NCBI GenBank assembly: GCA_043817485.1
Contig: JBDRGX010000074.1
Span: 1-6,503, forward strand
Reading direction: 5' to 3'
Length of the DNA stretch: 6,503 nt
Source of the DNA: JBDRGX01 sp043817485 [NCBI: bacterium]
GTDB taxonomy: Bacteria; JBDRGX01
The translations under genes and the position numbers were made by a program. Below are positions 1,514-6,503 of the stretch, one piece after another (within the stretch, counting starts at the first letter, position 1; each line of letters opens with the position of its first letter). Below the pieces are notes generated by a model, which had not been told where the DNA came from, did no database searches, and worked only from the letters and a program-made list of their open reading frames with translations.

Positions 1514-2526
1514 AAAAAACAATTATTTTTATTATAATTATAGTCATAGCAGTAGTTTTCTTTTTTTTAATTAAAGGAAAACGTAACAATGATTTGGAAG
1601 TAAAAGTTGTAGAAGTTAAATATGGTAATTTAATTGCAACAGTTTCTAATTCTGGAACTTTAAGATCAAATAAAGAAATAAATTTAACAACAGCAATTTT
1701 TGGAAAAATAAATAAAATAATGGTATCTGAAAATCAAACAGTAAATAAAGGAATGATTCTTTTAAAACTTGAAACATTTGATCAAGCAGAAAAAGATTAT
1801 AACCGAATGAAATCTTTAGGAGAAAAAGGATTTGTTTCTTTGCAACAAATTGAATTAGCAAAAAAACAATGGGAAAATACTTTTATTATAGCACCATTTT
1901 CTGGAACAATTGTTAAAAAATTTATTGAAGAAGGAGAAGTATTAAATGGGCCTGCTTTTTTAATAGCAGATTTAAATGATATGATTGTTGAAACAAATAT
2001 TGATGAAACTGAAATTGGAAAAGTGAAAACAGGACAAGTAGCAGAAGTTATTATAGATGCTTATAAAGATATTAAAAATTCAGGAAAAGTACAATTTATT
2101 GCTAAAACAAGTTTGGAAATTAAAGAAAAAGGAATTACATATCAAGTTAAAGTAAAACTTGATCCAACAAATATAATTTTAAGATTAGGTATGACTGCAG
2201 ATGTAAACATAAAAGTAATGGAAAAAAAGAATGTTTTAATTGTGCCTTATTCTGCTATAGGTGAAGAAAAAGAAGAATTTTTTGTTTTCGTAGTTGAAAA
2301 TGATAAAATTAAAAAAAGAATTATTAAAACAGGTATTGAAAATTATGAATATACAGAAGTTATTTCTGGGTTAAAAGAAAAAGAAATATTAGTTGAAACC
2401 AATACTTCGAAATTACAAAAAGGACAAAAAATTAAAAAAGAAAAAGAACAAAAGTTTGATTTTAAAAAATCAAAAAAATCAAAAATTGAAAGAATGCTTT
2501 TTAAATTCAAATCAAAAAAACATTAG
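1510..2526 (+). CDS. MacA/HlyD-type periplasmic adaptor (membrane fusion protein) with a shortened hairpin
   Basis: A 338-residue adaptor linking the inner-membrane permeases to the TolC-type channel. An N-terminal anchor (residues 4-21, all hydrophobic) is followed by the membrane-proximal strand, the first lipoyl half (about 55-88), a helical hairpin (about 89-125), the second lipoyl half (APFSGTIV, from about 127), a beta-barrel (about 157-235) and the C-terminal membrane-proximal domain (about 240-305). The hairpin is only about 36 residues. Compared with E. coli MacA recalled from memory, both helices look about 28 residues short. The channel-docking tip motif R-x3-L-x6-S is nevertheless intact as R99, L103 and S110. 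A lysine-rich tail (about 309-338) extends past the usual end. The ATG overlaps the upstream TGA, and AGGAG at 1498-1502 sits 7 nt before it. Family assignment is firm. The choice of MacA over other HlyD-like adaptors rests on the neighbouring ATPase and permeases. Confidence 0.92.
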   Translation: MKKTIIFIIIIVIAVVFFFLIKGKRNNDLEVKVVEVKYGNLIATVSNSGTLRSNKEINLTTAIFGKINKIMVSENQTVNKGMILLKLETFDQAEKDYNRMKSLGEKGFVSLQQIELAKKQWENTFIIAPFSGTIVKKFIEEGEVLNGPAFLIADLNDMIVETNIDETEIGKVKTGQVAEVIIDAYKDIKNSGKVQFIAKTSLEIKEKGITYQVKVKLDPTNIILRLGMTADVNIKVMEKKNVLIVPYSAIGEEKEEFFVFVVENDKIKKRIIKTGIENYEYTEVISGLKEKEILVETNTSKLQKGQKIKKEKEQKFDFKKSKKSKIERMLFKFKSKKH

Positions 2527-2660
2527 TTTTGAGTTTTTAACAATGTAATTATTTTATACTAATTTGCATTTAAAATGATAACAAGGCGGCGTGACAACAA
2601 AGCCAACACAATTTGTTTAAATGCTATTTGGTGTCTAATGAAATATTTAGAATAACAAAA
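2527..2660 (+). other. Spacer between adaptor and permease genes, with a GC-richer patch
   Basis: A 134-nt non-coding gap inside an otherwise tightly packed operon. The first half is AT-rich and contains a TATACT (2555-2560) that could act as a -10 element, but no convincing -35 box lies at the right distance. Positions 2584-2609 are clearly richer in G and C than anything nearby (GGCGGCGTGAC, then AAAGCCAACAC). Around 2606-2635, ACACAAT can pair with ATTGGTGT if one G bulges. I see no RNA-gene signature and no coding potential that aligns with either neighbour. The gap could hold a secondary promoter, an mRNA processing site or a small inserted relict. Confidence 0.4.
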
Positions 2661-3863
2661 ATGAATAATATAGAAAACATTTTAATATCTTTTAATAATT
2701 TAAAAACAAATAAAACAAGAACATTTCTTACAATGCTTGGTATTATTATTGGTGTTATGGTTATTATTCTTCTAATGTCTGTTATTTTTGGGACACAACA
2801 AGAAATTATAAGTGATATAAAATCAATGGGAAGTAATGTAATAATAATTATTCCTGGAAATATAGAAAAATTACACGGTCCCCCAGATCTTTTTTCTATA
2901 AATAAACTTAAATTAAGACATGTAAATATTATTGAAAAATGTAGTAGTTTTAATGCAAAAGTCTCTCCTGTTTCTATTATTAAAGGTATTCCCATTAAAT
3001 ATAAAAAAGAAAAAAGAAATACAACTATTGTTATGGGAACAAGTGTAAATTTTCCAAATGTGCGTAATTGGAATCTTGCTGAAGGAAAATTTTTCAATAA
3101 TAAAGATGTAGAATCTAATAAAAAACTTGCTGTTGTTGGAAAAATTATTGTTGAAGATCTTTATAAAAATACTAATCCTATTGGAAAAAAAATAAATGTT
3201 GGAGATAAAAAATTAACTATTATAGGAGTTTTACAGGAAAAAGGAATGTTTATGGGACAAAATATGGATGATTGCATTGTTATTCCTATTACTACAGCTC
3301 AAGATATATTAGGATTTTCTACAATAAATAGAATGCTTGTAAAAATTCCAAATTCTTGTGATGTTGAAAATGCAATTATTGAAATTAAAAAAATTTTAAG
3401 TAAAGAAATGGATAAAAAAGATTTTACAGTAAAAAGTCAAAGTGAACTTTTAAATATGGTTAATACTTTTGCTAATGTTTTAAATATTGTTATGAGTTTC
3501 ATAGCAAGCATTTCTTTGTTTGTTGGAGGAATTGGAATTATGAATATTATGATTGTTGTTGTTAAAGAAAGAACTAAAGAAATTGGTATAAGAAAAGCAA
3601 TTGGAGCAACTTTTCACAATATTTTATTCCAATTTATAACAGAATCAGCAATAATTTCTATTACTGGAGGACTTATTGGAATAATTTTATCTATGGCTAT
3701 AATTTTATTTATTGCTCCTTTTATTTCATTCCCTTTAAAAATATCTTTTAATAGTGTTATTTTAGGATTTAGTTTTTCAGTAATAATTGGAATTTTTTTT
3801 GGAACTTATCCAGCAATAAAAGCCGCAAAAACAGATCCTATTGTAGCTTTAAGACATGAATAG
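2661..3863 (+). CDS. MacB/FtsX-type ABC transporter permease, first of a tandem pair
   Basis: A 400-residue inner-membrane permease with the MacB layout. TM1 is at about 21-45, a large periplasmic domain runs over about 46-265, and three C-terminal helices lie at about 272-300, 328-352 and 364-384. The family hallmark GGIGIMNIM (289-297) followed by KERTKEIGIRKAIGA (302-316) is present, as is the C-terminal GTYPAIKAAKTDPI. There is no ATP-binding domain, unlike E. coli MacB where the ATPase is fused N-terminally; the ATPase encoded at 1-224 should serve instead. Start choice: this ATG aligns residue for residue with the start of the second permease (MNNIENILISF against MTIIESISLSF). The frame stays open upstream to a TTG at 2613, but those codons match nothing in the sister gene. 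No Shine-Dalgarno sequence is visible before this ATG, unlike the other operon genes. The stop is TAG. Confidence 0.9.
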   Translation: MNNIENILISFNNLKTNKTRTFLTMLGIIIGVMVIILLMSVIFGTQQEIISDIKSMGSNVIIIIPGNIEKLHGPPDLFSINKLKLRHVNIIEKCSSFNAKVSPVSIIKGIPIKYKKEKRNTTIVMGTSVNFPNVRNWNLAEGKFFNNKDVESNKKLAVVGKIIVEDLYKNTNPIGKKINVGDKKLTIIGVLQEKGMFMGQNMDDCIVIPITTAQDILGFSTINRMLVKIPNSCDVENAIIEIKKILSKEMDKKDFTVKSQSELLNMVNTFANVLNIVMSFIASISLFVGGIGIMNIMIVVVKERTKEIGIRKAIGATFHNILFQFITESAIISITGGLIGIILSMAIILFIAPFISFPLKISFNSVILGFSFSVIIGIFFGTYPAIKAAKTDPIVALRHE

Positions 3864-3868
3864 GGTGA
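3862..3868 (+). promoter_or_regulatory. Ribosome binding site of the second permease, overlapping the first permease's stop
   Basis: AGGGTGA starts inside the TAG stop of the first permease (3861-3863) and lies 7 nt before the ATG at 3876. This fixes the start of the second permease and implies that ribosomes finishing the first gene pass directly over the second gene's initiation site. Such coupling would help keep the two subunits at equal amounts. Confidence 0.75.
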
Positions 3869-3875
3869 AATATTT

Positions 3876-5069
3876 ATGACTATTATTGAAAGTATTAGTT
3901 TATCATTTAAAAATTTATGGATAAGTAAAATAAGAACTTTTTTAACTCTTTTTGGTATTATTATAGGAATAATGTCTATTATTTTACTTGTTTCTGTGAT
4001 TGTTGGGACAAAAACTAAAATAGAAAATGAAATGATGACAATGGGATCAAATTTAGTAATGATTTTCCCTGGAAATGATGAAACACCTACTGGTAGAATG
4101 TTTGCTATTAACAAATTACGATTAAAACATGTTGAAATTCTTGAAGTAAAAAATAATTATAATCTGAAAATTTGTCCAGAAGTTGATTTAATGGGTGTAA
4201 TTGTAAAATATAAAAAAGAAAGTAGAGATAATTGTAATTTAGTAGGTGCTGGAGCAAATTTTGAAGAAGTTTATAATTGGAAAATTAATAAAGGAAAATT
4301 TTTTAAAAAAGGAGATGTTAATTCTAAAAGAAAAGTTGCTATAATTGGAGAAACAATAGTAAATAGTTTTTTTAAAACAATTAATCCTATTGGAAAAGAA
4401 ATATTTATAAAAGGAGAAAAATTTAAAATTATAGGAGTAATGGAAAGTAAAGGAAAAATGTTTGATATTGATATGGATGATACAGTTTATATTCCTGTTA
4501 CAACCTCTCAAAATTTAAAAGGATCATTAAAAATCGACCAAATAAATGTAAAAATTCCTGATTCTTCTAATATTGATAAAGCAGTATTAGAAATAAAACG
4601 ACTTTTAGAAAAAGATTTGAATAAAGAAAATTTTAGTGTAAAAACTCAAGGTGAAATACTTACAAAATTTAATAAATTTACAAATATTTTAAGTATTGTC
4701 ACTTATATTATATCTGGAATTTCTTTATTGGTTGGAGGCATTGGAATTATGAATATTATGATAGCCACAGTAACAGAAAGAAAAAAAGAAATTGGCATTA
4801 GAAAGGCAGTAGGAGCAACTTTTGGAAATATTGTAACTCAATTTTTAATAGAATCATGTATATTGGCACTTATTGGAGGAATAATAGGGATTGTTTTATC
4901 TCTTGTTATTATAAAAGTAGCAAGTCCTTATATTCCATTTCCTTTAAAAGCATCTAAAGAATCCATTTTGCTTGCTTTTTCTTTTTCAAGTTTTGTTGGA
5001 ATTTTTTTTGGAACTTATCCTGCAATAAAAGCTGGAAAAGTAGATCCTATAACTGCTTTGAATGAATAA
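3876..5069 (+). CDS. MacB/FtsX-type ABC transporter permease, second of a tandem pair
   Basis: A 397-residue paralogue of the preceding gene, about half identical by eye and colinear except for small length differences near residue 70. It has TM1 at about 21-43, a periplasmic domain at about 44-265 and further helices at about 270-298, 319-348 and 362-382. The hallmark GGIGIMNIM (288-296) is followed by TERKKEIGIRKAVGA (300-314), and the end is GTYPAIKAGKVDPITAL. There is no ATP-binding domain. Having two non-identical permeases beside one free ATPase resembles LolC/LolE with LolD in gene layout. The TolC and MacA partners, however, point to export rather than lipoprotein release. A heterodimer of the two permeases is the simplest model. 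Two separate homodimers sharing one ATPase cannot be excluded. AGGGTGA lies 7 nt before the ATG. The stop is TAA, followed by a hairpin. Confidence 0.92.
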   Translation: MTIIESISLSFKNLWISKIRTFLTLFGIIIGIMSIILLVSVIVGTKTKIENEMMTMGSNLVMIFPGNDETPTGRMFAINKLRLKHVEILEVKNNYNLKICPEVDLMGVIVKYKKESRDNCNLVGAGANFEEVYNWKINKGKFFKKGDVNSKRKVAIIGETIVNSFFKTINPIGKEIFIKGEKFKIIGVMESKGKMFDIDMDDTVYIPVTTSQNLKGSLKIDQINVKIPDSSNIDKAVLEIKRLLEKDLNKENFSVKTQGEILTKFNKFTNILSIVTYIISGISLLVGGIGIMNIMIATVTERKKEIGIRKAVGATFGNIVTQFLIESCILALIGGIIGIVLSLVIIKVASPYIPFPLKASKESILLAFSFSSFVGIFFGTYPAIKAGKVDPITALNE

Positions 5070-5929: not shown

Positions 5930-5983
5930 ATGAAAGTTAAAAAGCCTAATCCATTAAAACAAGGATTGAAACATGGCAAATAA
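5930..5983 (+). CDS. Possible 17-residue leader peptide overlapping the methyltransferase start
   Basis: A short frame MKVKKPNPLKQGLKHGK ends in TAA at 5981-5983, overlapping the first 11 nt of the methyltransferase gene in another frame. It begins within the predicted mRNA leader, about 17 nt after the expected transcription start. It is basic and matches no family I recognise. No clear Shine-Dalgarno sequence precedes it. The overlap would allow translational coupling, but a frame this short occurs readily by chance. Confidence 0.2.
   Translation: MKVKKPNPLKQGLKHGK
5961..5965 (+). promoter_or_regulatory. Ribosome binding site of the methyltransferase gene
   Basis: AAGGA lies 7 nt before the ATG at 5973. 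It selects this start, from which the protein aligns with the EcoRI methyltransferase N-terminus (LHKA, then DEFYTQ). Confidence 0.65.
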
Positions 5984-6503
5984 ATCATCAAATAGATACT
6001 TACACAAGGCAAGTCAAGTAAAAAATGACGAGTTTTATACTCAACTTGCTGATATTGAAAGGGAGATGAGCCATTATAAAGATCATTTTAAAAACAAGAT
6101 TGTTTTTTGTAATTGTGACGACCCTCGCATAAGTAATTTTTTTCACTATTTTTCATATAATTTTGAATTTTTAAAGTTAAAAAAATTGATTACGACTTGC
6201 TATAAAAACCAGCAAGTTGATTTGTTCAGTCAAAATAATTCTGAAAAAGCAATCTATTTAGAATATACCGGCGACAAAAACGACGACAAAATTCCCGACC
6301 TAAACGAAATTGGCATAAAGCATCTAAAAGGTGATGGAGATTTTAGAAGTTCTGAATGTATTGAACTTTTAAAACAAGCCGATATTGTGGTTACCAATCC
6401 GCCATTTTCTTTGTTTCGCGAATATGTCGCCCAGTTAATGGAACACAAGAAAAAATTTGTAATAATTGGCAATTTAAACGCCATAACATACAAAGAAATT
6501 TTT
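5973..6503 (+). CDS. EcoRI-type adenine-specific DNA methyltransferase (5' part, runs off the right edge)
   Basis: The first 177 residues of a protein closely matching M.EcoRI, an N6-adenine methyltransferase that modifies GAATTC in the EcoRI system. Recognised segments in order are LHKASQVKNDEFYTQ (10-24), NKIVFCNCDDPRISNFFHYF (41-60), the KLITTCY strand (71-77), KGDGDFRS (119-126), and the catalytic motif in ADIVVTNPPFSLFREYV, with NPPF at 142-145. M.EcoRI is about 326 residues, so slightly over half is present. The AAGGA ribosome site and family alignment fix the start. Codons ending in C or G (GAC, GCC, CGC, ACC) are far more frequent than in the export operon, which points to separate origin. 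No partner endonuclease is visible in the window; it may lie downstream, or the enzyme may be an orphan. The target sequence is inferred from family and is not shown here. The minus-strand frame over 6254-6493 is only its shadow. Confidence 0.9.
   Translation, partial: MANKSSNRYLHKASQVKNDEFYTQLADIEREMSHYKDHFKNKIVFCNCDDPRISNFFHYFSYNFEFLKLKKLITTCYKNQQVDLFSQNNSEKAIYLEYTGDKNDDKIPDLNEIGIKHLKGDGDFRSSECIELLKQADIVVTNPPFSLFREYVAQLMEHKKKFVIIGNLNAITYKEIF

Follow-up and report, generated by a model that had tools for sequence, protein, structure and literature searches.

The window, by which we mean the whole stretch of 6,503 nucleotides of bacterial DNA analysed here, raises the question of whether a periplasmic adaptor whose hairpin is far shorter than that of E. 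coli MacA can be a working part of a pump, and how such an adaptor would then engage its outer membrane channel.

Organization of the pump locus

The pump genes all lie on the + strand, in a window whose GC content is 23.7%, and follow one another as listed:

3-224, + strand: gene for an ABC ATPase (MacB/DarD/FtsE-like), truncated at the window edge to its 3' end, upstream of the TolC gene
242-1513, + strand: TolC-like outer membrane channel, 423 aa (Pfam OEP, 205.3 bits, in two stretches)
1510-2526, + strand: MacA-like periplasmic adaptor, 338 aa (Pfam, TIGR01730, solved relatives and model)
2661-3863, + strand: MacB-type permease 1, 400 aa, ATG at 2661 (Pfam MacB_PCD 135.5 bits, FtsX 73.5 bits)
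3876-5069, + strand: MacB-type permease 2, 397 aa (same Pfam families, 134.7 and 66.6 bits)

With a separate ATPase, two MacB-type permeases and a TolC of its own, the locus has the make-up of a split MacAB-TolC-type pump. It has the MacA-type association of the adaptor with MacB-type permease, ATPase and TolC genes, the ATPase being represented in the window by its gene end only; E. coli MacB, in contrast, unites ATPase and permease in one chain. The ATPase fragment matches positions 151-222 of the NCBIfam profile NF007826 (MacB) at 84.9 bits; the profile's cut-off, 966, is meant for a whole MacB. The two permeases, of which the first was searched as 2658-3860 (one codon more than 2661-3863), are 51% identical to each other (203/399, BLASTP) and perhaps form a heterodimeric permease (2661-5069); among the matches listed, the identity of their relatives does not exceed 39%. 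A gap of about 130 bases (2527-2660) separates adaptor and permease 1 in this otherwise tight operon, and within it lies a patch of 40% GC (2581-2640; window 24%), whose folding is no more stable than that of shuffled sequences (z 0.02).

An intact adaptor of the MacA/RND superfamily

The adaptor is a member of the MacA/RND-adaptor superfamily and its gene is intact: the frame is open over 338 codons, and its start overlaps the TolC stop (1510-1513). Membership of the RND/MFP adaptor superfamily follows from a score of 134.3 bits against TIGR01730 (cut-off 94.9), and the Pfam families HlyD_D23 and HlyD_3 are matched at 58.8 bits (cut-off 30) and 53.1 bits (cut-off 22.2), respectively. The MacA equivalog NF008606 is matched at 93 bits, far below its cut-off of 342. 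By sequence, the best solved relatives are a MacA and a MacA-MexA chimera. The protein begins with a membrane helix:

1513-1575, + strand: N-terminal hydrophobic helix, residues 2-22 (sequence; predicted helix, block pLDDT 51-64)

Together with the absence of any cysteine from the adaptor sequence, this helix, predicted at low confidence, indicates a membrane anchor of the MacA type and not a lipoprotein. At its other end the adaptor carries a lysine-rich tail (2443-2523, residues 312-338) that is predicted to be disordered (pLDDT <50) and is absent from E. coli MacA and from the adaptors of loci L102 and L136.

Both arms of the hairpin are shorter by heptads

The stretch 1774-1899, which had drawn the attention of the first-pass annotation, encodes residues 89-130 of the adaptor, the hairpin proper comprising residues 89-127; T89, R99, L103, S110 and A128 stand in the translation exactly where they had been placed. 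We measured the hairpin from G81, close to where the first lipoyl half ends, to P129, which opens the second, both counted, and relied on alignments only, since differences in hit length are unreliable for this purpose (the hairpin of L100 appears short by hit and is actually 104 residues long). From anchor to anchor the window adaptor has 49 residues, as opposed to 104 in E. coli K-12 MacA (D86 to P189), and thus lacks the long hairpin of the MacA type. The ascending arm, from the equivalent of G81 (D86 in MacA) to the R of the tip, spans 18 residues in the window vs 45 in MacA, and the descending arm, from the S of the tip to P, 19 vs 47 (S142-P189), so that the arms are 27 and 28 residues shorter. 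This bears out the earlier estimate of about 28 residues, or four heptads, per arm; the MacA distances on which it was based, about 38 and 46, are 37 and 46 when measured in the K-12 protein. Against E. coli AcrA (S139-P179 = 40) the window arms are about 20 and 21 residues shorter, that is three heptads. When the adaptor is compared with solved structures by phmmer, the offset between the matched halves is +56 for MacA (5nik) and +28 for 4dk1, a MacA carrying the MexA hairpin. The hairpin is thus shorter by four heptads per arm than that of MacA (within one residue), by three than that of AcrA and by two than that of MexA. The seven residues by which the AcrA hairpin exceeds the MexA hairpin, according to the available text of a 2026 review (PMC13328181), are in line with this heptad series.

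We found no compensation by a longer channel or longer permeases. Residues 45-420 of the TolC-like protein align weakly (E 2.6e-4) with 47-427 of 8zar_G, a TolC of solved structure, and the channel shows no lengthening against E. coli TolC either, as had been supposed; nor are the permeases lengthened, their residues 6-401 and 5-396 aligning with the MacB profile over its positions 256-648 and 256-646, respectively.

The tip is canonical and the small hairpin is predicted to fold

1804-1839, + strand: R-x3-L-x6-S tip motif, R99-L103-S110 (sequence; shuffle test)
1777-1824, + strand: predicted ascending helix of the mini-hairpin, residues 90-105 (AlphaFold blocks 91-100 and 101-110, pLDDT 90 and 94)
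1840-1875, + strand: predicted descending helix of the mini-hairpin, residues 111-122 (AlphaFold block 111-120, pLDDT 90)

The R-x3-L-x6-S tip of the MacA type, found at R131-S142 in E. coli K-12 MacA, is intact in the window adaptor, as first read. According to the accessible text of PMC3391258, the tip binds TolC through R, L and S (or T), and the interface is borne by 12 residues. Origin of the R-L-S string by chance can be rejected, as it arose in 0.3% of 200,000 shuffles of residues 89-127. Moreover, the tip, AEKDYNRMKSLGEKGFVS, shares 14 of its 18 residues with the tip of the L001 adaptor. This relative is an RND adaptor with a 69-residue hairpin; it differs from the window adaptor in having arms 9 and 11 residues longer and in adjoining an RND transporter.

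An AlphaFold2 model of the adaptor, computed for the monomer from a four-row alignment, has a mean pLDDT of 80.3, with residues 91-120 at 90-94. The two predicted helices set the protein apart from the BesA type, in which a loop stands in place of the hairpin. In a Foldseek search with the model a MacA chain came first and BesA second, and VIA-align placed BesA (18.5), TMexC, MacA (18.0-18.2), AcrA and MexA at Z 17.5-18.5, in effect tied. As modelled, the protein is an otherwise regular adaptor with a hairpin that is tiny yet present.

Short hairpins recur beside MacB-type permeases

The adaptor was searched in 124 genomes from the phylum of L001 (Candidatus Cloacimonadota), 194 from that of L005, 296 from that of L002 and 398 from that of L004, the last of which yielded two genomes with an adaptor match at E 1e-20 or better; the lipoyl-hairpin-lipoyl piece was searched in 121 genomes from the phylum of L001 and 395 from that of L002. 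Because the loci fetched were the best-scoring ones of each search, up to 30, the counts below are neither frequencies nor a census. They derive from 121 adaptor ORFs, of which 18 were cut off at the locus end and dropped, leaving 103, the window included; a few genes are represented twice (L001 and L006), and the anchors were read by eye in aligned segments. The 103 measured ORFs fall into the following hairpin classes:

42 residues: 30 rows
49 residues: the window adaptor
58 residues: 1 row
69 residues: 14 rows
73-77 residues: 5 rows
92-94 residues: 18 rows
104 residues: 23 rows
longer than 104 residues: 11 rows

In this survey of the kind that had been proposed, short hairpins do recur, namely the 42-residue ones, and a length of 49 residues occurs among these 103 ORFs in the window alone. 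In the 42-residue class (L102-L131, phylum of L002, presumably resembling Chlorobium sequences) 29 of the 30 loci have a MacB-type permease adjoining the adaptor, and phmmer with the window proteins (E 1e-4) detected a TolC-like gene in 18 of 30, a missed match being no proof of absence in loci as short as these. Short hairpins beside MacB and TolC are therefore a recurrent arrangement, and MacB/TolC operons are evidently compatible with them. Two loci of this type on longer stretches, L134 and L136, have the order TolC-adaptor-MacB; by Pfam, MacB is fused to the ATPase in both of them, a difference from the window, and the channel was Pfam-checked in L134 only. The 42-residue hairpins further differ from that of the window in being 7 residues shorter and in bearing, in the ascending helix, R-x3-L-x6-G in place of R-x3-L-x6-S (30/30 rows).

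Indeed, neither R-x3-L-x6-S nor R-x3-L-x6-T occurs in any of 37 distinct short hairpins (<60 residues) other than the window's, which comprise the 30 of the 42-residue group together with L023, L174, L175, L138, L144, L141 and L142; several loci measured later are the same genes as earlier ones, and L138 and L144 were measured by span only. In this sample, biased as it is towards best scores, the window hairpin is the sole short one with a canonical tip. The string is carried by only 3 of the 14 rows with 69-residue hairpins. The adaptor with a 58-residue hairpin (L137) sits in a cluster with ABC ATPase, MacB-type permease and TolC-like genes; its locus (1-11398, phylum of L001) has two TolC-like genes and, between adaptor and ATPase, what by eye is an HtrA-like fragment, and it may be a foreign contig in its bin. 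Two adaptors with 54-residue hairpins (L141, 3085-4110; L142, 3019-4071) lie beside RND transporters and have no R-L-S tip.

No relative was confirmed among viral contigs, which were scanned with the adaptor, with permease 2 and with an alignment. Plasmid records contain no near match to the window: the lipoyl-hairpin piece gave five weak matches (E 0.003 to 0.009), and the whole adaptor matches 272 records, all at <60% identity.

Relation to known adaptors

E. coli MacA (3fpp, 5nik) shares with the window adaptor the N-terminal membrane helix, the lipoyl and barrel domains and the R-L-S tip, and is likewise paired with a MacB-type permease and TolC; it differs by the 27 and 28 additional residues in its hairpin arms. 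Shortened arms as such are of a kind already in print. In the available text of PMC4446572 the adaptor coiled coil is described as variable in length, extended or shortened by heptad repeats and dispensed with in BesA, and excerpts of PMC3807786 give BesA of Borrelia, part of a tripartite pump, a nine-residue loop in place of the hairpin. LitP, of the LitOPAI transporter, resembles the window adaptor in serving a MacAB-like ABC pump that is likewise split and has a channel of its own, and in that both its hairpin helices are reported to be shorter than those of MacA, but its hairpin bears two additional small, protruding helices (PMC11559062, in part). In the portions of the literature available to us, adaptors of this sort in MacB pumps are treated in no paper that we found other than those cited here. 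What is new is the pairing of an unusually short hairpin with a canonical tip in an ABC-type pump.

Origin of the short hairpin and alternative readings

The first-pass annotation had taken the short hairpin for a matched deletion that spared the tip and left a functional miniature. A functional miniature adaptor is indeed the best reading, given the intact gene, the shortening on both sides, the confident model and the operon, but the trees do not establish a deletion from MacA length. Instead, the hairpin may never have been shortened from that length: the window adaptor and the 42-residue group would both be part of an old branch of MacB-linked adaptors with short hairpins, and the tip would be either ancestral or regained; we consider this somewhat unlikely. 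Its full-length scores are highest to that group (E 1.6e-38 to 1.9e-31; among measured adaptors of the other classes the best value is 3.8e-27, for G351/L171, whose hairpin has 69 residues), and the order TolC-adaptor-permease is common to both. With the hairpin left out, however, the advantage vanishes: the C-terminal part scores 91.4 bits to the 42-residue group vs 93.2 to 94-residue adaptors, and the N-terminal part 24.4 vs 29.0 bits to the 69-residue class, so that we do not accept direct kinship from full-length scores. Three trees built without hairpin columns from thinned rows (54, 43 and 41) gave the window no starred place and did not join it to the 42-residue group. AU tests on the 43-row tree rejected neither its union with that group (p-AU 0.228) nor that with the 104-residue (0.183) or 69-residue group (0.080); the value of 0.0003 for the 94-residue group comes from an unfair test, in which the named set lacked a 92-residue row that lies inside the group. 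In the 41-row tree, with more RND-type rows, the window sides at 86/87 (not starred) with the 42-, 94-, 104- and 161-residue rows, opposite the 69- and 54-residue rows, which would suit an old short-hairpin branch, while its tip, resembling those of ordinary 69-residue hairpins, would not.

The tip could also be a relic. Since the 42-residue group does without the R-x3-L-x6-S string in 30/30 rows, a short hairpin can evidently dispense with it, and the pump might work as that of BesA does, with the lipoyl domains holding the channel and the mini-hairpin left without a docking role. The hairpin-less BesA (4kks-4kku) is among the tied best structural matches and serves a working tripartite pump according to the available part of PMC3807786. 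The window adaptor, however, keeps both hairpin and tip, the latter shared with L001 at the 14 positions noted above, and its mini-hairpin folds confidently in the model. Furthermore, an RND transporter, such as the partner of BesA, reaches further into the periplasm than MacB, and for these reasons we regard a BesA-like mode of action as improbable. Least credible of all, to the point of being very nearly dismissed, is the idea that a hairpin which is normally long has suffered a local deletion or decay or was misassembled. It is true that the same hairpin was found in no second genome, so that a single sequence represents it; but such an accident would require two in-frame losses of near-equal size flanking an intact tip, in a frame that stays open, starts within the TolC stop and yields a product predicted to fold. 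Decay or a frameshift is rejected on the same grounds, in agreement with the first-pass view.

A model for the pump

We therefore favor, with a probability of roughly 0.6, the reading in which the window encodes the adaptor of a split MacAB-TolC-type pump that would dock TolC by a minimal R-L-S hairpin, with a conduit some 40 Å shorter. Six adaptors would sit as a ring on the periplasmic domains of the two permeases, with the adaptors' lipoyl domains making a gate, as would accord with the hexamers described for MacA, including its gate ring (PMC5768738), and for its Gram-positive counterpart (PMC5985334) in the accessible text of these papers. The six mini-hairpins would then build a short collar, whose R-L-S tips would mesh with the mouth of TolC. 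A helix rises 1.5 Å per residue, and the 27-28 residues lacking from each arm would make the conduit about 40 Å shorter than that of MacAB-TolC, because neither the channel nor the permeases are longer. Such a pump could work where the two membranes lie closer together, or with the channel drawn inward.

A bolder version of this model, which we hold to be doubtful, would have TolC docked through an R-L-S cogwheel on the minimal hairpin in an envelope about 40 Å thinner than that of E. coli, with the hairpin acting as a ruler of periplasmic width in heptad steps. It would be consistent with the anchor-to-anchor series of 49 residues in the window, 76 in two of the adaptors fetched, 90 in AcrA and 104 in MacA, the steps of which (27, 14 and 14) are close to multiples of 14. 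Should tip docking hold on so short a hairpin, the jobs of docking and spanning would be separated and the window adaptor would represent a minimal docking module made by nature. The adaptor and the shorter, motif-less group would then make the dispute over tip-to-tip vs side-by-side contacts between adaptor and channel testable on a natural length series, and the length of a pump would be tied to the width of its envelope.

Sequences downstream of the pump genes

Beyond the permeases, the window holds a solitary CRISPR repeat (5936-5972, + strand; Rfam RF01320 CRISPR-DR7, 53.1 bits, gathering 37), present in one copy and ending exactly at the ATG of a gene for an EcoRI-type adenine methyltransferase, of which the 5' part lies in the window (5973-6503, + strand; Pfam, 266.8 bits). 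The repeat may mark a junction of segments, either natural or arising from assembly. The methyltransferase gene has a third-position GC of 0.29, as compared with 0.07-0.09 in the pump genes, shares up to 72.7% identity with genes from mycobacteriophage records and was probably acquired separately.
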